DNA of 63,203 nucleotides from a virus, in the IMG/VR virus record IMGVR_UViG_3300025889_000117, positions 1 through 63,203 of that record. One strand, 5' to 3'. The number at the start of each line of letters is the position of its first letter. The first letter of the stretch is position 1. Below, piece after piece: positions 1 through 63,203 of the stretch. Position numbers and translations under genes: made by a program. The notes beneath the pieces are model-generated. The model had not been told where the DNA came from, did no database searches, and saw nothing but the letters and a program-made list of their open reading frames with translations.

Positions 1-121
1 AGCTGAAAAACAAGAAGCTGAAAAACAAGAAGCTGAAAAACAAGAAGCTGAAAAACAAGAAGCTGAAAAACAAGAAGCTGAAAAACAAGAAGCTGAAAAA
101 CAAGAAGCTGAAAAACAAGAA
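1..121 (+). repeat. 15-bp tandem repeat (EAEKQ), left end
   Basis: Eight near-perfect 15-bp units occupy the left end and continue the array at 63067-63203. Across the join there are about 17 full units. Because both ends fall inside the array, its true length is uncertain. Confidence 0.9.
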
Positions 122-322
122 GCTGAGTCTTATAAGAAATCAAAATCAAAATCAATTAGTAAAAAAGAATCTTATAAGCCTGAATCAAAACAAGGCAAAT
201 CAAAAGGTAAAACAAAACAAGGATCTTATAAGAAATCAAAAAATACTGGAAAAATAATTGGTATAGCTCAAAAAATACCAAGTGTACCAAGTGGACATTT
301 TGAGGGATCAGAATGGAGATAA
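1..322 (+). CDS. EAEKQ-repeat protein, C-terminal part (gene crosses the window ends)
   Basis: This is the 3' part of the gene that starts at 62893; joining the window ends keeps the frame and gives a protein of about 210 residues. The window opens inside a tandem array of the 15-bp unit GAAGCTGAAAAACAA, which encodes EAEKQ. After the array comes a Lys/Ser-rich tail in which SYKKSK or SYKPES-type segments recur about three times. The last residues (SGHFEGSEWR) are not repetitive. The stop overlaps the start of the next gene by 10 bp. No family is recognised. The composition suggests a charged single helix followed by a basic disordered tail. It is the third gene of the AAA-VWA module. Confidence 0.75.
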   Translation, partial: AEKQEAEKQEAEKQEAEKQEAEKQEAEKQEAEKQEAEKQEAESYKKSKSKSISKKESYKPESKQGKSKGKTKQGSYKKSKNTGKIIGIAQKIPSVPSGHFEGSEWR

Positions 323-774
323 CAGACTTAGAAAAATATATTGATAATATGATCAAAGTTCTTGATAAAGATCATTCTGTATCTAGATATTATAAGTGGT
401 TTAAACAAAATGCCAAAGTATATCACGTTATAAACAAAGAAAAATCTATTCAATATTCAAAGCAAAGTATAATTCAACGCTGTTTTGATAATTCTTATAA
501 AATCGTTATTAAAAGAAAAACTCTAAAGTATATTGAAGGTTTTACCCTTGCTTATGGAATACCAATAGAGCACGCTTTTATAACTAATAGTAAGAATGAG
601 ATTATAGATCCAACATTAGCGATCCCCGCATGCGGTGAATTTGAACGATACGGAGTAGAATATTACGGTGTAGAGATTCCAAGAAATCTTATAAAAATGC
701 TAAGATCAAAGGATAACTTCAACCCATTACCCTTTAGATACTGGCAATACTTAGAAAATGGGGGAACTTTATAA
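313..774 (+). CDS. hypothetical protein with possible Cys-His-Asp (transglutaminase-like) residues
   Basis: The protein has 153 residues and starts inside the end of the preceding gene (ATGGAGATAA overlap), as in an operon. It contains QRCFDNS, then GIPIEHAF, then IIDPTLA and YYGVEIP. This order (Cys, His in an E-H-A context, Asp in D-P-T) matches a small phage protein family I have seen annotated as hypothetical, and it is compatible with a transglutaminase or papain-like triad. The triad is my inference. No signal peptide or membrane segment is visible. Confidence 0.7.
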   Translation: MEITDLEKYIDNMIKVLDKDHSVSRYYKWFKQNAKVYHVINKEKSIQYSKQSIIQRCFDNSYKIVIKRKTLKYIEGFTLAYGIPIEHAFITNSKNEIIDPTLAIPACGEFERYGVEYYGVEIPRNLIKMLRSKDNFNPLPFRYWQYLENGGTL

Positions 775-2926: not shown

Positions 2927-2967
2927 TTTTTTTATCTTCTTTTATTTTTTATAATTTATAATATCGT

Positions 2968-3103
2968 AGTATATCTTCATAGTATATCTTCATAGTATAT
3001 CTTCATAGTATATCTTCATAGTATATCTTCATAGTATATCTTCATAGTATATCTTCATAGTATATCTTCATAGTATATCTTCATAGTATATCTTCATAGT
3101 ATA
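2968..3103. repeat. 13-bp tandem repeat (AGTATATCTTCAT), about 10.5 units
   Basis: Ten identical units in perfect register plus a partial unit. Each unit carries AGTATATC, which reappears at 3294-3301 just upstream of the gene at 3317. The array may be a multi-site protein target or a cluster of decoy TATA elements. It is not CRISPR: the period is too short and there are no spacers. Confidence 0.9.
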
Positions 3104-3138
3104 ATATCAAAGTATAACTTTATAATTTTATAAAAAAG

Positions 3139-6544: not shown

Positions 6545-6663
6545 CAGAAGTAATTCATTGTATAGTATGTGGTGAAGAATTATGGATAGACGATTATAGA
6601 AACTATTCAAAATGTGATAAACATAAAAAGACTAATATATATCGAAGTATATCCGAAGTATAA
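6541..6663 (+). CDS. 40-residue zinc-binding peptide
   Basis: A small ORF (MTEVIHCIVCGEELW...) with HCIVC and CDKH, a CxxC/CxxH zinc site. It overlaps the HNH-like gene by ATGA and the methyltransferase gene by TAATG, which ties the three together. Confidence 0.6.
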   Translation: MTEVIHCIVCGEELWIDDYRNYSKCDKHKKTNIYRSISEV

Positions 6664-7229
6664 TGAATATTCCATTACCAAGTAAAAAGTATAATATAAT
6701 ATATTGTGATCCAGCATGGTCTTATAATGATAAGGCTCTCGCTGGTAATCGTGGTGCAGGTTGTAAATATAATGTAATGACATTAGAAGAATTAAAACAA
6801 TTACCTGTTCAAAGTATATCCGAATCTGATAGTATAATGTTTATGTGGGTTACAATGCCAAAATTATTAGATGGTACTTGTATGGAAGTTATGAAGTCAT
6901 GGGACTTTATACCGAAAACTTGTGCTTTTACTTGGATAAAATATTATAAGAATTTAAAACCATTTATGGGAATGGGTAGGTGGACAAGAGCAAATGCGGA
7001 GTTATGTATATTGGGAACAAAGGGAAAGCCACAGCGTATAAGTGCAAGTATCAGACAGTTAATAGAAACTTATAATGGTGATATTATACAAAGCATACCC
7101 GAAAGACATAGTAAGAAACCAAATGTTGCAAGAGATAGAATAGTTGAATTATGTGGTGATTTACCTAGAATAGAATTATTTGCTAGAGAGACAGCAGACG
7201 GTTGGGATTCTTGGGGTAATGAAATATGA
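6663..7229 (+). CDS. MT-A70-type adenine N6-methyltransferase
   Basis: The protein has 188 residues. YNIIYCDPAWSY (Asp16-Pro-Ala-Trp) is the DPPW-type catalytic motif with Ala in the third place, followed by a family-typical IMFMWVTMPKLLDG segment, the AELCILGTKGKP strand and the RIELFARETADGWDSWGNE end that closes MT-A70 proteins. It transfers a methyl group from SAM to adenine N6 in DNA or RNA. No restriction partner is seen, so self-protection or control of viral DNA is likely. The target sequence is not known. Confidence 0.9.
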   Translation: MNIPLPSKKYNIIYCDPAWSYNDKALAGNRGAGCKYNVMTLEELKQLPVQSISESDSIMFMWVTMPKLLDGTCMEVMKSWDFIPKTCAFTWIKYYKNLKPFMGMGRWTRANAELCILGTKGKPQRISASIRQLIETYNGDIIQSIPERHSKKPNVARDRIVELCGDLPRIELFARETADGWDSWGNEI

Positions 7230-13472: not shown

Positions 13473-13829
13473 TTAATAGCTTTCTATGATATTGAAATTA
13501 AATTTTTGTTGATCTATGATAACTGGTGTTATATTTGAAAACTCTATTTCTCCAATCCAGTTGCCTGCATTTGCTGAAGTTGTAATTGATGCAAGTATCG
13601 TAAAAGAAACTATTCCATTTGCCCTGTCAGTAAATGAGACGTTTGTACCTGAGTCAATCAATGTTCCATCAGGCTTATAAATTTTCACTACCCCTGTTGC
13701 ATATACATTTGTATCTGTCATATCTACGGCTAAATTAGTATCTGGATCAAGAATTGTTAATTGAAATGTTTTTGTTGTGCCTACTGTTATCTCAAAAGTA
13801 ATCCCAAAATCTTCTCTATTTACGCTCAT
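13473..13829 (-). CDS. beta-sandwich virion protein (tail-fibre or baseplate associated)
   Basis: The protein has 118 residues and is almost entirely beta-strand (FEITVGTTKTFQLTILDPDTNLAVDMTDT...NWIGEIEF...FNFNIIESY). Its pattern recalls the N-terminal domain of phage upper-baseplate BppU-like proteins. It is coupled to the repeat protein by an ATGA overlap. Confidence 0.6.
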   Translation of the reverse strand: MSVNREDFGITFEITVGTTKTFQLTILDPDTNLAVDMTDTNVYATGVVKIYKPDGTLIDSGTNVSFTDRANGIVSFTILASITTSANAGNWIGEIEFSNITPVIIDQQKFNFNIIESY

Positions 13830-15403
13830 ATCTGAATATTACCTCTATTGGTTTTAAATTTTATTGACTTGCTTGTATCTTTTATTCTTATAACTGCACC
13901 TGAGATTAGCAGGTAGGTTTCAGTAATATTGTGTTTTAGTATTTTATAAGAAATTATTGATGAATTAATATTATGTTTTAATATTTTTGTTACTTTTAGC
14001 AATCCAGACATATTATGCTTTAAGATAATTAATTTCTGTACTGAGTTTAATACAACGTGCTTTAATATGACATTAACTACCACAGTACCAGCTAGACCAT
14101 GTTTAAGAATAACATTTTTTGTTGTTGATGAGTTTATATTGTGTTTTAATATGTTATTTACAAGTAAGAATCCTGATAAACTGTGTTTTAGTATTATTAA
14201 TTTTTCTACGGAGTTTAAAATGGTGTGTTTTAATATCACGTTCTTTGTTAGTGCTGAATTAATATTGTGTTTTAATATTTTGTTTACAATTAATAATCCA
14301 GATAAATTATGTTTGAAAATGATATTCTTTGATATTGCCTCAATTATAGTGTGTTTGAGAATTATATTCTTTGATATTGCTTCAATTATAGTGTGTTTGA
14401 GAATAACATTTTTTGTTGTTGATGAGTTTATATTATGTTTTAATATTGTTGTTTCTAACACACTGTTTTGAATATTGTGTTTTAATATTTCAAATGTTCC
14501 TACCACTCCAGCTAAATAATGTTTAAAAATAACATTCTTTGATATTGCTTCAATTATAGTGTGTTTGAGAATAACATTTTTTGTTGTTGATGAGTTTATA
14601 TTATGTTTTAATATTGTTGTTTCTAACACACTGTTTTGAATATTGTGTTTTAATATTTCAAATGTTCCTACCACTCCAGCTAAATAATGTTTAAAAATAA
14701 CATTCTTTGATATTGCTTCAATTATAGTGTGTTTGAGAATAACATTTTTTGTTGTTGATGAGTTTATATTATGTTTTAATATTGTTGTTTCTAACACACT
14801 GTTTTGAATATTGTGTTTTAATATTTCAAATGTTCCTACCACTCCAGCTAAATAATGTTTAAAAATAACATTCTTTGATATTGCATCTCTTATATTATGT
14901 TTAAGAATAACATTCTTTGTTATTGCATCTCTTATATTATGTTTAAGAATAACATTCTTTGATATTGCCTCAATTATATTGTGTTTGAGTATTTTTGTTG
15001 CTGATACAGCACTGTTTATATTATGTTTAAGTATTTTTGTTGCTGATACAGCACTGTTTATATTGTGTTTGAGTATTTTTGTTGCTGATACAGCACTGTT
15101 TATATTGTGTTTGAGTATTTTTGTTACTTCTAATGCTGAATTTATATTATGTTTAAGAATAACATTCTTTGTTATTGCATCTCTTATATTGTGTTTGAGT
15201 ATATGTAATTTTTCAATACTATTGATTAGATTATGTTTAAGAATAATATTTTTTGATGCAAAAGTATTGATATTATGTTTAAGTATTGTATTTAATTCTG
15301 TTTCATATGATATTATAATTCCATCGGTTCCACCATCTTCTAAAGTAAGAAGGCTTGTTCCATCTTCTAATGTAAGTAGATTTTCACGGGATTCAGTAGG
15401 CAT
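13826..15403 (-). CDS. tail-fibre-like protein with 33 copies of a 14-residue repeat
   Basis: The protein has 525 residues. After a short start containing two LLTLEDG copies, I count about 33 units of consensus ILKHNInsaisknv; LKH or FKH is invariant. The DNA period is 42 bp. A block of four units (56 residues, 168 bp) is repeated three times almost identically. Regular short repeats of this type usually form a beta-solenoid or fibrous shaft. The unrepeated C-terminus (SGAVIRIKDTSKSIKFKTNRG) may be a tip or anchor. Its place among fibre genes supports host recognition, and recent repeat expansion is evident. Confidence 0.75.
   Translation of the reverse strand: MPTESRENLLTLEDGTSLLTLEDGGTDGIIISYETELNTILKHNINTFASKNIILKHNLINSIEKLHILKHNIRDAITKNVILKHNINSALEVTKILKHNINSAVSATKILKHNINSAVSATKILKHNINSAVSATKILKHNIIEAISKNVILKHNIRDAITKNVILKHNIRDAISKNVIFKHYLAGVVGTFEILKHNIQNSVLETTILKHNINSSTTKNVILKHTIIEAISKNVIFKHYLAGVVGTFEILKHNIQNSVLETTILKHNINSSTTKNVILKHTIIEAISKNVIFKHYLAGVVGTFEILKHNIQNSVLETTILKHNINSSTTKNVILKHTIIEAISKNIILKHTIIEAISKNIIFKHNLSGLLIVNKILKHNINSALTKNVILKHTILNSVEKLIILKHSLSGFLLVNNILKHNINSSTTKNVILKHGLAGTVVVNVILKHVVLNSVQKLIILKHNMSGLLKVTKILKHNINSSIISYKILKHNITETYLLISGAVIRIKDTSKSIKFKTNRGNIQI
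14378..14880. repeat. 168-bp direct repeat, three copies, inside the 14-residue repeat gene
   Basis: The segment starting GCTAAATAATGTTTAAAAAT occurs at 14511, 14679 and 14847, exactly 168 bp apart, and the sequence between is nearly identical. This equals four 42-bp units and shows recent segmental duplication. Confidence 0.9.
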
Positions 15404-58610: not shown

Positions 58611-59711
58611 ATGGGATCGCTAAATTTATGGTATTTAAATGTTGCTTTTGATGAAGCATCTGCTTCTATAAGGCTTACTTTGTTAGCATTACGGGATTTG
58701 ACTCCCCCCCCATTTATAAATCTTTTTCCTTATAAATTATAAAATTTTTCCCGTATAAGGCGATCTTATCGGATAACCTTATAATCTTATAATTCGGTAC
58801 CCCCCTATTTATAAATCTTTTTCCTTATCATGCGTGGCGAGTATGAGGATTTGAACCACCGTCATATATAAGGGTTGCGTGTGATTTTTATCGATCACGC
58901 CTAAAAAATTAGCGATGATCGCACATCACGCCTAGATTTTGGGGTATATAGTGATTTTTGATCGTAAATCATGTTTCACAAAGCGGAACAGGGGTGATCG
59001 CTAATACAATAAGGGGGGGTTGCTTTTTTTTTCATGCCTATATGGGGATCTTATAAGATATGATCATAATTGTTATAGGCACAAAGGGGGGATCAGTATA
59101 AAAAAACGCTTATCATTAATGATTAACATTGAATTCCCGCCATGCCTAAAAGATCACTATATAGTAATTTTTTTTTGGAATTTGTCAAAGTCTGCAAATT
59201 ATAAGCGTGATCTATTGTGGGAAATCCAAAAATTCTACAACAAAGGATTAAATACGCATGATCGCCCGTTTTTTTCGCATATTTTAAAAAAATCAATTTA
59301 GATTTTCTAGCTTCTATAGTTTTATAATTAATTCTATATAGTTTATAAAAAATCTATATAGATTTACCAAAAAACTGTATTCTCTTATAATTCGGTGTAA
59401 AATTAATTTTATAAAATTGTCAATGTTCTTTTAGTGTATTTTTTGCAAAAAATCCCGCAAAACAAAACACTATTATAATCAATTTTTGGCAAATCCTAGA
59501 TCGTCAGATTTTTTTGGTGAAATAGAAAGATTATTATAATCATTTTTTCGCAAATCCTAGATCGTCAGATTTTTTGATAAAATAGAAAGGTTATTATAAT
59601 GATTTTTTGGCAAATCCTAGATCGTCAGATTTTTTTACTGTAATTATTTTGACAACAAAATCCCCGAAAATTCACACCGGATTTTTTATAATAATTTTTT
59701 TTATAATTTTC
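58611..59711. other. 1.1-kb non-coding region: GATC cluster, iterons, minus-strand promoters
   Basis: No convincing gene. From about 58705 and 58802 two copies of CCCCC(C/T)ATTTATAAATC occur, reading on the minus strand as GATTTATAAAT promoter-like elements. From 58880 to 59260 I count about ten GATC sites, mostly in TGATCGC or GATCACGCC contexts. At 59470-59637 three iterons follow. Frames at 59020-59301 and 59607 upstream of 59712 look spurious. Best read as a replication or control region. Confidence 0.7.
59474..59637. repeat. three 60/61-bp iterons (CAAATCCTAGATCGTCAG core)
   Basis: The core CAAATCCTAGATCGTCAGAT occurs at 59490, 59551 and 59611, and each copy is flanked by TTATAAT and a T-run. 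Spacings are 61 and 60 bp. AATC...GATT inside the core gives weak dyad symmetry. Iterons of this size next to a dispersed-motif region are typical of replication origins or partition sites; function is inferred. Confidence 0.75.
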
Positions 59712-59816: not shown

Positions 59817-60150
59817 TTTAATTTTTTTTCTTTTTTGGCACTTTTTTCTTTTTTAGGCACAAAACCCCGCATCATGATTTATATGTGGTCTCAACGGTGT
59901 AAAAGTTTGGATCGTTTTTTCTTACTAGTGCCTAATTATTTTATCCTAGTGCTAAAAATAAAATTTCAGAATTTCACTAAGTCCACAAATTATAATTTTA
60001 AACAAAAAATCCCTTTTTTTTATGCGTAAAATTCGATTTATGGAATTTTTATAAAATTAGGCACGAATTTTATAAAAAAAATGTCAAAAAATGAGCATTT
60101 TTTATTTTTACGATCTTTTTTTATAATTTTTTTTTATAAAATTATAAGAT

Positions 60151-60203
60151 TTAGGCACAAATTGCCTATTAAACCATCACGATTTTTTCGATTTGTGCCT
60201 AAA
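60151..60203. promoter_or_regulatory. inverted repeat upstream of the AAA gene (TTAGGCACAAAT/ATTTGTGCCTAA)
   Basis: The two arms, 60151-60162 and 60191-60202, are perfectly complementary with a 28-bp loop containing TGCCTATTAAACC. The repeat ends about 20 bp before the TATA box at 60222, so it is more likely a DNA operator than part of an RNA. The same repeat occurs at 61956-62005. Confidence 0.7.
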
Positions 60204-60221
60204 TGATGGATCACTTATTGA

Positions 60222-60230
60222 TTTATATTA
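60222..60230 (+). promoter_or_regulatory. TATA box of the AAA gene
   Basis: TTTATATTA begins 29 nt before the ATG at 60251, identical in sequence and spacing to the VWA promoter. Confidence 0.75.
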
Positions 60231-60250
60231 TAATTCATTTTAAGAATGGC

Positions 60251-61564
60251 ATGAAGAAATTCACAATTCAAACAATCGAAGAATTCGCAACAAGCGGATC
60301 ACAAAAATCATGGTTAAAGAAATTTTTTAACCTAATCGAAGATCATGATTTATGGAATCAATCAGTAAGCCAAATCTTACTTAGAATGGAACAAGAAGTA
60401 ACAACAAAAACCACGTACTCAGCAATGAAGTCAACTTTTCTAAAGTTCACAAGTTCTCTCGATTTAGAAGGTAAAACTTCAACCGAATCTCAAGCAGAAT
60501 TGAGACAAAGAGAAGAATTCATCAAAATTCAAGCCGAACAACTAAGAGAACAACAAGAACTAGCAAAAATTGAAGCTGAAAAAATCGCAGAAATGCAAAA
60601 AATCGAAGCTGAAAAAATGGCAAAAATCGAAGCTGAAAAATTAGCACAAGCACAAAAAGAGAGAATTGAGGAATTAACTGCGGGTTTCGTACCTGAGGAA
60701 ATTCCAGACGAATTTATAAAATTCGATCCTGAAAATTATAAACTCCAAAAAGCCTCAGAATATTTCCAACAAGATCAAGAAAAAGAAATTTTCGATGCAT
60801 TGTTGACATTCGGAAAAAATGTGATTTTGACCGGTCAACAAGGAACTGGAAAAACTGAGCTTGCACAATTACACGCTTTTGAAAATCAAGATCCAATGTT
60901 CAAAATCGCTTGTTCAGCTGATTTAAGAAAAACCGATTTGATCGGATCAAAAACATTAGATCAAGACGAAAAATTAAAACAAATTGCGGGAATGTTAACA
61001 AGAGCCGTTTTAACCGCAAATAAAACCGGATCTGCCATGGTGCTTTTAGACGAAGGAAATGCCTTGATTCCTAAAGTGCAAATCATGCTTTATGGTTTGA
61101 CAGATTCAACAAGAAGGATCGATCTTCCTGAAATGACAAAACCACTTGTTTTGAATAAAGGTGCTAGATTGAAATTTGTCATTACCATGAATGATCAATA
61201 TTCAGGAACTAGTCCATTGAATAAACCATTATTGGACAGATTCAATGTAATCCAAATGAAGAGACTACCAAAACAAATTGTTTTGAAAATTATAAAAAAT
61301 TATAACGTCTCAAGCGAAATCAAAAACAAGCTTTTTGAACTTTCAGAAGCTATTGATCAAGCACAAAGATCAAACACTCTATCAGAACAAGCTAACATGA
61401 GTGTTAGAGCGATTAAAGCAATTTGTGAAGAAATAGAAATTTTCACAATGGCAAAAATCGAAAACCCTGTGAAAGAAGCTTTAGAAGTAGGGATCGTTAA
61501 AAAATTCTCAGAAGAGAAATACCAAGAAGAGGTGAGAGAAATTATAAGAAAAATCGGATTTTAA
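60251..61564 (+). CDS. MoxR-type AAA ATPase with coiled coil
   Basis: The protein has 437 residues. The ATG at 60251 is set by the TATA box. Residues about 1-75 form a helical domain, and about 80-140 a charged coiled coil with KIEAEK repeats (like the EAEKQ repeats of the third gene). The AAA core has Walker A GQQGTGKT (195-202), SADLRKTDLIGS, Walker B MVLLDEGN, sensor ITMNDQY and an LDRFN arginine-finger region. MoxR ATPases act with VWA partners to remodel protein complexes, as in ATV p618/p892 of an archaeal virus. The partner is next door. Confidence 0.85.
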   Translation: MKKFTIQTIEEFATSGSQKSWLKKFFNLIEDHDLWNQSVSQILLRMEQEVTTKTTYSAMKSTFLKFTSSLDLEGKTSTESQAELRQREEFIKIQAEQLREQQELAKIEAEKIAEMQKIEAEKMAKIEAEKLAQAQKERIEELTAGFVPEEIPDEFIKFDPENYKLQKASEYFQQDQEKEIFDALLTFGKNVILTGQQGTGKTELAQLHAFENQDPMFKIACSADLRKTDLIGSKTLDQDEKLKQIAGMLTRAVLTANKTGSAMVLLDEGNALIPKVQIMLYGLTDSTRRIDLPEMTKPLVLNKGARLKFVITMNDQYSGTSPLNKPLLDRFNVIQMKRLPKQIVLKIIKNYNVSSEIKNKLFELSEAIDQAQRSNTLSEQANMSVRAIKAICEEIEIFTMAKIENPVKEALEVGIVKKFSEEKYQEEVREIIRKIGF

Positions 61565-61955
61565 AAAATCCAATTTTTTTTTCAAAATTTTTTTTATAAA
61601 ATCTTATAATTTTTTTTTTCATTTTTTTTTCAATTTTTTTTTCAAAAATTTTTTTTATAAAATTCTTATAATTTTTTTTTGCAACAAAATTTTTTTGAAT
61701 TAACGGTACGGTACTTTCAAGTACTGGTACTTTATTTTAAATCAACGGTACTTTATTTTGTGGTAAATGGTATGCTAAGTATGGATACTATTGATACTGT
61801 TTAGATTTCAGAAATTTCTTAAGTCTTAATTTTAGTATCCATTTTACTGATACTGTTTTTTTAGGCACAAATTAAGCATGAAGAAAAGGCAAAAAATGAA
61901 CATTTTTTATTTTACCGATCTTTTTACTTGTTATTTTTTTTCAAAAATTCCCGAT

Positions 61956-62005
61956 TTAGGCACAAATTGCCTATTAAACCCCAATGATTTTTTGATTTGT
62001 GCCTA
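61956..62005. promoter_or_regulatory. inverted repeat upstream of the VWA gene (TTAGGCACAAAT/ATTTGTGCCTA)
   Basis: The arms 61956-61967 and 61995-62005 pair perfectly over 11 bp, with the loop TGCCTATTAAACC conserved from the AAA copy. It lies about 20 bp before the TATA box, as in the AAA copy. Confidence 0.7.
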
Positions 62006-62024
62006 TTTTGCGATCGGTGGTTGA

Positions 62025-62033
62025 TTTATATTA
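62025..62033 (+). promoter_or_regulatory. TATA box of the VWA gene
   Basis: TTTATATTA begins 29 nt before the ATG at 62054, the same box and spacing as for the AAA gene. Confidence 0.75.
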
Positions 62034-62053
62034 GAACTATTGATAAAAATGCC

Positions 62054-62890
62054 ATGGAAATTACAGAAATCACACTAGAGAAAAACCAAAAAGATCCAAT
62101 TTTTAAAGAGCGATCAAATAAAGGTTACAAGGTTAATCAAGCATTAGCCGACAGAATCGGAGAAACTTTAAACAAAATTAAAGGAAGAATGGATCAAGAA
62201 ATCGGAGAAAGCGGAGATTTAGACGAAGAAGAATATCTAGATTTTCGTGTGGATCGAAAATTAGGATTCATGAAAAACTTAGATATTTTTAACGAAACAA
62301 ACGAAAAAAACGGGTTAGACGTCGTTTTTCTTGTTGATTGCTCCGGCTCAATGCGTGGACTTCAGCAAAAAATGGCAGACATAACCGCCACTGTTATGTT
62401 GGGATTAAAAAAATGTCCTTTCATTAATTTTAAGACATTGGCTTATTCGGCTAGCGGGTACGAATATCAAGGATATTATGAAATAATTACCGACTTCACA
62501 CAAGCTGGAAAAATTCACGCCGACGAAGATCACTATCATGATGTTCACCATTTAGCGATCGCTGAAGCTAGAAAAATGTTGGAAGAAAGCGAAAATAAAC
62601 GTTTGATTATTTTTATGACCGACGGTTACCCAGAAGGTAGATTAGAAGGAAGATCAATACCTCAAGAATTATTGTGGACTATGATCGAAAAAGAGATCAC
62701 AAAATCAAAAAATAAAGAAATTGATTTTTTCGCTATCTACTACGATCGTATTGGGCGTGGTGCTTCTGATAGAATGAAAAAATGCTTTAGAAATTCACTT
62801 TATGTGACTCACGATTTCTTAGATATTCAAACAAAGTTAATTGAAAAATTAAATCAAACAGTGGAAAAACTAAATTCAGGAGCTTCTTAA
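62054..62890 (+). CDS. VWA-domain protein, partner of the AAA ATPase
   Basis: The protein has 278 residues from the ATG set by the TATA box; a longer frame to 61997 starts in the inverted repeat. After a charged N-terminus comes the VWA domain: MIDAS VFLVDCSGSMRG (Asp95, Ser97, Ser99), a Thr/Asp later in IIFMTDGYPEG. The middle has a His-rich loop (DEDHYHDVHH). Pairing with a MoxR ATPase is a recurrent arrangement (CobS/CobT, RavA/ViaA). The gene is followed at 2 bp by the EAEKQ-repeat gene. Confidence 0.85.
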   Translation: MEITEITLEKNQKDPIFKERSNKGYKVNQALADRIGETLNKIKGRMDQEIGESGDLDEEEYLDFRVDRKLGFMKNLDIFNETNEKNGLDVVFLVDCSGSMRGLQQKMADITATVMLGLKKCPFINFKTLAYSASGYEYQGYYEIITDFTQAGKIHADEDHYHDVHHLAIAEARKMLEESENKRLIIFMTDGYPEGRLEGRSIPQELLWTMIEKEITKSKNKEIDFFAIYYDRIGRGASDRMKKCFRNSLYVTHDFLDIQTKLIEKLNQTVEKLNSGAS

Positions 62891-62892
62891 AA

Positions 62893-63203
62893 ATGGATTT
62901 AGATCAAGAATGGCTTGAAAAATTAGCTTCTGTTTTTCATTTTTCAGAAATTAAAGAAAGTTGGAATAAAAATTTAAAGTCTGAAATTTCAGATAATGAA
63001 TTAAAGGTTATAATTTCAAATTTTCAATTAAAAATGAAACAAGAAGCTTATAAAAAATCAGAACAAGAAGCTGAAAAACAAGAAGCTGAAAAACAAGAAG
63101 CTGAAAAACAAGAAGCTGAAAAACAAGAAGCTGAAAAACAAGAAGCTGAAAAACAAGAAGCTGAAAAACAAGAAGCTGAAAAACAAGAAGCTGAAAAACA
63201 AGA
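62893..63203 (+). CDS. EAEKQ-repeat protein, N-terminal part
   Basis: The ATG lies two bases after the VWA stop, so it is the third gene of the same transcript. The first 58 residues are helical and charged (MDLDQEWLEKLASVFHF...); then the EAEKQ units begin and run to the window end. The last two bases form one codon with base 1. The short helical start may bind the AAA-VWA pair. The repeat resembles the coiled coil of the AAA gene. Confidence 0.8.
   Translation, partial: MDLDQEWLEKLASVFHFSEIKESWNKNLKSEISDNELKVIISNFQLKMKQEAYKKSEQEAEKQEAEKQEAEKQEAEKQEAEKQEAEKQEAEKQEAEKQEAEKQ
63067..63203 (+). repeat. 15-bp tandem repeat (EAEKQ), right end
   Basis: Nine full units plus two bases; contiguous with the left-end array. 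The overlap of the two ends may hide the true copy number. Confidence 0.9.

Follow-up and report, generated by a model that had tools for sequence, protein, structure and literature searches.

The virus analysed here probably encodes a remodelling machine of the MoxR-superfamily AAA+/VWA type with a charged-repeat protein as a separately encoded subunit. In the window, by which we mean the whole stretch of 63,203 nucleotides that was analysed, genes for an AAA+ ATPase, a VWA protein and an EAEKQ-repeat protein follow each other in tandem. This order had been proposed in the preliminary description and is borne out by the open reading frame calls and by Pfam matches to AAA_5 and VWA. The virus belongs to the archaeal tailed viruses, and a marine Nitrosopumilales ammonia oxidiser is its most likely host; all 44 matches of the viral RadA are thaumarchaeal RadA proteins.

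The three genes

The translation of the first gene contains a Walker A motif (GQQGTGKT), a Walker B motif (LLDE), the sensor-1 asparagine and an arginine finger, and its N-terminal part is helical/coiled-coil. The protein matches Pfam AAA_5 with E=3e-16 (60 bits, cut-off 22), its best PHROG match is PHROG 249 (E=1.7e-18), and its matches among PDB sequences are CbbQ, NorQ (best) and CobS (weak). An upstream ATG at 60246 yields ATG-GCA-TGA only, and the start codon lies at 60251. The VWA protein matches Pfam VWA with E=3.5e-6 (27.8 bits, cut-off 23.8) and possesses a complete MIDAS motif (DCSGS...TDG, with D95-S97-S99 and T189-D190), while a motif scan of it detected neither an HExxH domain nor a D/E-rich linker. 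The window contains the sequence features of an AAA+/VWA pair, namely a motif-complete AAA_5/MoxR ATPase and an adjacent gene for a MIDAS-containing VWA protein, for which physical interaction and ATP-driven remodelling are predicted.

The repeat gene begins 2 nt 3' of the VWA stop codon. It had been taken to end at 63203 but continues in frame at the other end of the window, and joining the contig ends yields one open reading frame of 210 aa. A 120-bp direct terminal repeat of the contig falls inside the repeat array, and the 17 repeat copies obtained by simple joining are not a reliable figure. No Pfam family was found for the protein of the gene that follows (Table 1). T-rich tracts behind the AAA stop codon are a possible archaeal terminator that would separate the AAA gene from a VWA-repeat operon. 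The module is located in a rightward gene block, probably of early genes, apart from the leftward structural genes.

Table 1. Features of the module and its surroundings, in window positions
Feature	Position	Strand	Basis or remark
AAA+ ATPase gene, 437 aa	60251..61564	+	MoxR superfamily, CobS/CbbQ/NorQ-like
VWA protein gene, 278 aa	62054..62890	+	Pfam VWA, alignment with the relative's VWA, motif scan
Repeat-protein gene, 5' part	62893..63203	+	58-aa N-terminal region, then (EAEKQ)n; ORF and repeat calls
Repeat-protein gene, 3' part	1..322	+	(EAEKQ)n, then Lys/Ser-rich basic tail; reading frame continues from 63203
Gene after the repeat gene, 153 aa	313..774	+	overlaps end of repeat gene; same strand and block
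T-rich tracts 3' of AAA stop	61566..61682	+	read directly from sequence; putative
Duplicated upstream region, copy 1 (AAA promoter)	60083..60250	+	alignment, shuffle test
Duplicated upstream region, copy 2 (VWA-repeat operon promoter)	61887..62053	+	alignment, shuffle test
Inverted repeat ATTTAGGCACAAAT-28-ATTTGTGCCTAAAT	60149..60204	.	proposed operator; perfect 14-bp arms 60149-60162/60191-60204, loop 28
Inverted repeat TAGGCACAAAT-27-ATTTGTGCCTA	61957..62005	.	proposed operator; perfect 11-bp arms 61957-61967/61995-62005, loop 27
TATA box TTTATATTA	60222..60230	+	29 nt 5' of AAA ATG
TATA box TTTATATTA	62025..62033	+	29 nt 5' of VWA ATG
Single half-site AGGCACAA	59077..59084	+	
Single half-site AGGCACAA	59855..59862	+	
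Single half-site AGGCACAA	61863..61870	+	

Duplicated promoter regions

The regions upstream of the AAA and VWA genes align lengthwise (blastn, 78% identity over 209 nt, E=2e-37), and their local alignment score is 157, against at most 38 among 500 dinucleotide shuffles. They had been described as duplicated leaders; the duplication is genuine, but with the TATA box located downstream of the inverted repeat, these regions are probably untranscribed. The inverted repeat common to both, with its perfect arms, is confirmed and probably represents a DNA operator rather than an RNA leader, and the promoters appear to be leaderless. A reading of the repeat as an RNA hairpin was rejected because of its position upstream of the TATA box; both copies fold well as RNA (z -4.3 and -5.0), the outer-arm changes in copy 2 are uncompensated, which counts against a hairpin, and no Rfam family was found for the repeat. 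The identical TATA boxes do stand exactly 29 nt before both start codons, as had been noticed, but this spacing is not special, since a TATA box 27-32 nt before the ATG is a rule of the whole genome, found for 16 of the 35 genes with an upstream gap of their own (against 1-5 for control windows of the same width). Sites found in a scan for sigma-70-type promoters were no more numerous than in shuffles. The half-site of the inverted repeat is enriched also 5' of the AAA gene of a relative, hence in two lineages in all, and together with the duplication this supports a shared control element.

Conservation of the third gene

Relatives were reached via terminase and capsid searches. Direct searches of viral_contigs with the AAA and VWA proteins returned no relative, a VWA search among phages gave no match, and no further genome emerged when the 313-774 protein and the VWA of the relative were used as queries; contigs obtained by a RadA scan mostly stop before the module, and a capsid scan of genomes revealed no provirus. 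The relative is represented by two near-identical contigs (G034/G035), and the comparison spans only three lineages.

Over the shared proteins, G034/G035 have a mean identity of 57% to the window virus, and they contain the AAA-VWA pair followed by a coupled repeat gene in the same order. The presence of the repeat gene beside the pair in relatives had been set in advance as the test of whether it belongs there, and G034/G035 show it in this place. Coupling to the VWA gene is by a 4-nt overlap there and a 2-nt gap here, the repeat is (SE)n there and (EAEKQ)n here, and the N-terminal regions of the repeat proteins look unlike between the lineages. The AAA and VWA proteins share only 21-24% identity with the relative's, while capsid and RadA of the same viruses are 76-82% identical. 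G011, a third contig, carries the far part of an (SE)n repeat gene next to a homologue of the 313-774 gene (54% identity), and the relatives thereby show the repeat gene from both sides. In every relative in which it is seen, the contig ends with this gene, which is therefore probably under-reported. An EAEK theme common to the coiled coil and the repeat protein had also been suggested; it is a local resemblance that we dropped, as this theme is absent from the AAA and repeat proteins of the relative.

The AAA protein of G034, which occupies a very long branch in an AAA tree without a resolved branching order, has neither a canonical Walker B motif nor the C-terminal lid, suggesting that an active motor is not necessary in every copy. 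In the relative G045, profile searches detected neither an AAA nor a VWA domain, so that this virus group seems able to do without the module, with the limit that the AAA_5 profile also misses the divergent AAA of G034.

Comparison with known AAA-VWA systems

ATV p618/p892 had been named as a precedent but is not supported as the nearest one; AAA-VWA pairs are already described in the archaeal tailed viruses HVTV-1, HCTV-2, HHTV-2 and Hardycor1 (PMC7911831, PMC8651126). HVTV-1 (Druskaviridae), whose portal and RadA are distant relatives of those of the window virus, likewise encodes AAA and then VWA (gp59/gp57, annotated as porphyrin biosynthesis/von Willebrand factor type A, 'CobST'). Its gp57, however, is one protein of 743 aa that combines an HExxH motif and a D/E-rich linker with a VWA at the C-terminus. 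The window VWA has 278 aa and neither HExxH nor linker, the charged stretch being encoded by its own gene; a Druskaviridae-type VWA fused to an HExxH domain and an acidic linker was not found in the window. Hardycor1, HCTV-2 and HHTV-2 also possess AAA and vWA/MIDAS genes, which in Hardycor1 are adjacent in the replication/accessory region (PMC7911831); the Hardycor1 VWA is long (711 aa), and the pertinent sections of the source mention no separate repeat gene for these three viruses. In ATV, a MoxR ATPase and a VWA partner occur as here, and their interaction has been shown experimentally (PMC4124505); p618 is a component of the virion of this spindle-shaped virus, and a third repeat protein is not mentioned in the pertinent passages.

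Among cellular systems, CbbQ-CbbO/NorQ-NorD and the AAA-VWA pairs of hosts equally combine a MoxR-superfamily AAA with a VWA partner, but the host AAA of about 265 aa is without the N-terminal coiled coil of the viral protein and alignable only over the AAA core. The MoxR-vWA ternary conflict systems (VMAP and others, PMC7159879) have a third component as well; they are cellular, mostly of multicellular prokaryotes, and this third part is VMAP, iSTAND or others in place of the charged repeat (PMC7159879).

Proposed mechanism

In the remodelling machine that we favour, the AAA+ protein would form a ring and spend ATP on remodelling a client complex, and the VWA protein would serve as an adaptor that presents the client or a linker via Mg2+-carboxylate contacts at the MIDAS. 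The Glu-rich repeat protein, acting in trans, would serve as the flexible acidic linker that HVTV-1-type proteins have fused to their VWA, and the duplicated operator upstream of the TATA box would keep the AAA gene and the VWA-repeat operon in step. Ring assembly, the contact of MIDAS and repeat, co-regulation, leaderless transcripts and a role outside cobalamin synthesis are what we infer for this machine, and its client could about equally be a multi-subunit complex of the host or tail/fibre assembly.

Composition and position suggest equating the repeat protein with the fused linker. A split linker is supported by the D/E-rich linker fused before the VWA in HVTV-1 gp57 and Kvothe gp81, and by an acidic (DSDDS)n stretch behind an HExxH domain, encoded next to an AAA gene on a Nitrosotalea MAG contig. 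Against it, (EAEKQ)n is expected to be helical and (SE)n disordered, and the fused linker precedes the VWA, whereas the repeat gene here follows it. AlphaFold yielded poor models (mean pLDDT 41 and 49), and since no match in the fold search reached E<=0.001, the VWA-like and Rea1/NorQD matches in it are no evidence. Only tentatively do we go further and propose, for viruses of ammonia-oxidising archaea, a three-part machine that is unrelated to cobalamin and expressed from promoters under an operator of their own. In it, the acidic linker of CobT-like/midasin-like proteins would have become a distinct, fast-changing repeat protein that serves the MIDAS in trans as a polyvalent ligand.

Alternative roles

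A possible, though doubtful, alternative is host takeover or counter-defence, in which the viral pair competes with or redirects a host AAA-VWA pair or another host complex. Six of the examined hosts have an adjacent pair of an AAA (about 265 aa) and a VWA-motif protein, the viral AAA is 32% identical to the host AAA over 189 aa, and the module lies in the presumed early block. The low identity of AAA and VWA beside the conserved capsid and RadA would be expected for proteins facing changing partners, but fast change may equally reflect relaxed constraint or replacement of the module. PADLOC gave no convincing match for the module, only two sub-threshold-looking AAA matches (E 0.003-0.007) that were taken as chance; this library covers defence proteins, with anti-defence proteins lying outside it.

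It is likewise rather unlikely, in our view, that the repeat gene is a mere low-complexity bystander that happens to lie downstream of the VWA gene. The differing repeat sequences and unlike N-terminal regions of the lineages would fit it, yet the same place, the same coupling to the VWA gene and the same class of charged repeat recur in a lineage with such divergent AAA and VWA proteins.

A chaperone role in virion or tail assembly like that of ATV p618/p892, in which the repeat protein would be part of the tail or of a scaffold, appears unlikely as well. It has an experimental precedent in ATV (PMC4124505) and has been proposed for jumbo phages (PMC7824862), and G011, which has the repeat gene, shares tail/fibre-region genes with the window that are missing in G045, the relative without AAA-VWA. 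However, the module stands away from the leftward structural genes, and in the comparison of three lineages G045, which lacks it, still has the same capsid and portal genes and most of the tail genes.

The weakest reading, in which AAA and VWA are CobS and CobT and join a host CobN to raise cobalamin synthesis, is very improbable and, given a Nitrosopumilales host, largely refuted, as the likely hosts are without CobN, the enzyme that the pair would need. It is already published for related viruses, Druskaviridae and other tailed viruses (PMC8651126), and could draw on the 'porphyrin biosynthesis' label of PHROG 249 and on CobS among the weak PDB and NCBIfam matches. PHROG 249 is unspecific, though, with the hosts' own small AAA proteins scoring better (1e-35 to 6e-40); the AAA reaches 19 bits against NCBIfam CobS TIGR01650 (cut-off 558), which is not CobS level, and the VWA, which has neither the N-terminal part nor the acidic linker of CobT, 12 bits against TIGR01651 (CobT; cut-off 759). 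With controls that were detected, CobN was found neither in the virus nor in any of the 10 hosts examined first, and it is absent in 200 of 201 genomes of the order to which the inferred host belongs; 9 of the 10 hosts carry the single-subunit chelatase CbiX instead.

Implications

Having the VWA and the charged stretch as two coupled genes offers a way to probe the acidic linker of MoxR-VWA machines by omitting one small product. Viral AAA-VWA pairs commonly carry vitamin-B12 labels (CobS/CobT) and are assigned to auxiliary metabolism, and a virus group with likely hosts that use CbiX and have no CobN is well suited to challenge this annotation.

The AAA-VWA-repeat gene module

Near the right end of the window, genes for an AAA ATPase, a VWA protein and an (EAEKQ)n repeat protein lie in tandem, and the AAA protein has PDB sequence matches to CbbQ, NorQ and CobS. 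Both ends of the 63,203-base contig lie in the repeat array, with a direct terminal repeat of 120 bp that corresponds to eight 15-bp units. Joining the ends yields a single repeat gene, whose product has a 58-residue start, EAEKQ units in a number that is not reliable, and a Lys/Ser-rich tail.

Features of the window, by position
Feature	Position	Size	Remarks
Gene adjoining the repeat array	313-774		homologue (54%) in G011
ORF, rightward block	874-1413	179 aa	C2H2-like start (CHVCKACY...HLLFEH); no Pfam family; candidate regulator
Tandem TAGTATATCTTCA, rightward block	2967-3124	13-bp unit	10.5 copies
MT-A70-family methyltransferase	6663-7229		E=3e-28; 75% conserved in G011
Tail-fibre-like ORF, leftward block	13826-15403	525 aa	tandem repeats, periods 168, 126, 84, 42 bp
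Direct repeats in 1.7-kb non-coding stretch before AAA gene	59449-59629	three of 60 bp	~91% matches; iteron-like; possible origin or control region
Upstream region, AAA gene	60083-60250
AAA gene	start 60251	437 aa	Pfam AAA_5, E=3e-16
Upstream region, VWA gene	61887-62053
VWA gene	start 62054	278 aa	Pfam VWA, E=3.5e-6; MIDAS complete
Repeat gene	62893-63203 + 1-322	210 aa	single ORF across joined ends

The preliminary description took the repeat protein for a third component of the module, and this is supported by two related, nearly identical contigs collinear with the window, G034 (IMGVR_UViG_3300030061_003386) and G035. At the corresponding place they carry an AAA gene (416 aa), a VWA gene (289 aa) and a third ORF, which has a 4-nt overlap with the VWA stop and, where the contig ends, continues as (SE)n. 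The related contig G011 (3300032360_000008) shows (SE)n from the opposite side, at its own end, next to its homologue of the first gene in the table. The order is therefore kept, despite the divergence of AAA and VWA to 21-24% identity between the window and its relative (capsid protein 82%, RadA 76%); mean identity is 83.4% between G034 and G011 and about 57% for each against the window. The G034 AAA protein (L083:829-2079) has an intact Walker A, a degenerate or non-canonical Walker B and no C-terminal lid, and judged from these motifs it is possibly inactive. In G045 (3300020235_000181), a contig continuous through the region, a profile search found neither AAA nor VWA domains, a result that rests mainly on VWA because the AAA_5 profile also misses the G034 AAA; a GATase_6-like gene (L092:15533-16558) occupies the corresponding region.

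Upstream regions and promoters

The duplication of the upstream regions with their inverted repeat is confirmed, as the two can be aligned over their entire length (local alignment score 157, shuffle maximum 38). The inverted repeats are perfect in both: the arms measure 14 bp around a loop of 28 in the AAA copy and 11 bp around a loop of 27 in the VWA copy, compared to longest arms of 11 and 10 in 300 shuffles. The half-site AGGCACAA occurs seven times in 2.2 kb of window upstream DNA (0.03 expected) and three times in 2.1 kb before the G034 AAA gene (0.04 expected), and none of 2,000 shuffles attained either count. Since the motif was picked after inspection of the window, where 4/7 sites fall within the duplicated pair, it is the G034 count that provides the independent test of enrichment.

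The spacing of exactly 29 nt before the ATG had also been regarded as special, but a TATA box 27-32 nt before the ATG is found in 16 of the 35 genes having an upstream gap (control windows gave 1-5), and the spacing is therefore that of the general promoter of this virus. In archaeal promoter geometry, a TATA box at such a distance gives leaderless transcripts. Transcripts from these promoters would accordingly be leaderless, so that the inverted repeat would lie upstream of the transcribed region and is probably a DNA operator. Although the repeat can be folded as RNA, copy 2 has changed at its outer positions without compensation.

Likely host and the cobaltochelatase label

The window encodes both an MCM-type primase-helicase and RadA. 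Its terminase has Halogranum tailed virus 1 as nearest match, portal and RadA show a distant likeness to Haloarcula tailed viruses such as HVTV-1, and searches with terminase and capsid recovered dozens of related contigs in IMG/VR. A published capsid tree places marine Thaumarchaeota viruses in one clade with Druskaviridae (PMC8651126). With one genome searched per species, the viral RadA had 44 relatives (46-53% identity), each with a title that names Thaumarchaeota, Nitrosopumilales, Marine Group I or a genus belonging to one of these. A Nitrosopumilales host is thus likely, on RadA evidence that is good, though not conclusive because the search required exact 7-residue seeds. Host archaea have an AAA_5 gene (about 265 aa) of their own next to a VWA-motif gene (L171-L176), and one (L177) has a MoxR-DUF58 pair.

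Related viral pairs have been named CobST and proposed to hijack the host cobaltochelatase partner CobN (PMC8651126); they have alternatively been read as MoxR-vWA chaperones (PMC7824862, PMC7911831). CobN was absent in 200 of 201 genomes of the likely host order, with positive control searches, and was not found in the virus. Among the ten host genomes first examined none had CobN, and nine had the single-subunit chelatase CbiX. The PHROG label "porphyrin biosynthesis" is non-specific, because the hosts' own small AAA proteins outscore the window AAA in it. A cobaltochelatase role is therefore unlikely for the window pair, and the likely hosts of the virus group argue against the usual label.

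Comparison with fused linker proteins

HVTV-1 gp57 combines an HExxH motif, a D/E-rich stretch and VWA within a single protein, a plan shared by Kvothe gp81. The window, by contrast, has a short VWA protein, with the charged stretch encoded by a gene of its own that is coupled to VWA and follows it, whereas in the fused proteins the linker precedes VWA. We infer that the repeat protein may stand in for the linker, in trans, with the reservation that the order differs and that the (EAEKQ)n of the window and the (SE)n of its relatives should differ in structure. On a Nitrosotalea MAG contig (L178/L181, 61,890 bases), an AAA gene is followed by an HExxH protein entering (DSDDS)n at the contig end; this contig, which may be a different kind of mobile element, also has a very large ORF and two proteins that resemble each other and have hydrophobic starts.

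The observations of the preliminary description were largely right and its interpretation, a self-contained viral machine under dedicated control, holds only in part: the third component is supported, the special spacing is not. Viral AAA-VWA pairs are already known; new here are the separate charged-repeat gene and the duplicated putative operator. Candidate clients of the module may be host complexes, or tail or fibre assembly.
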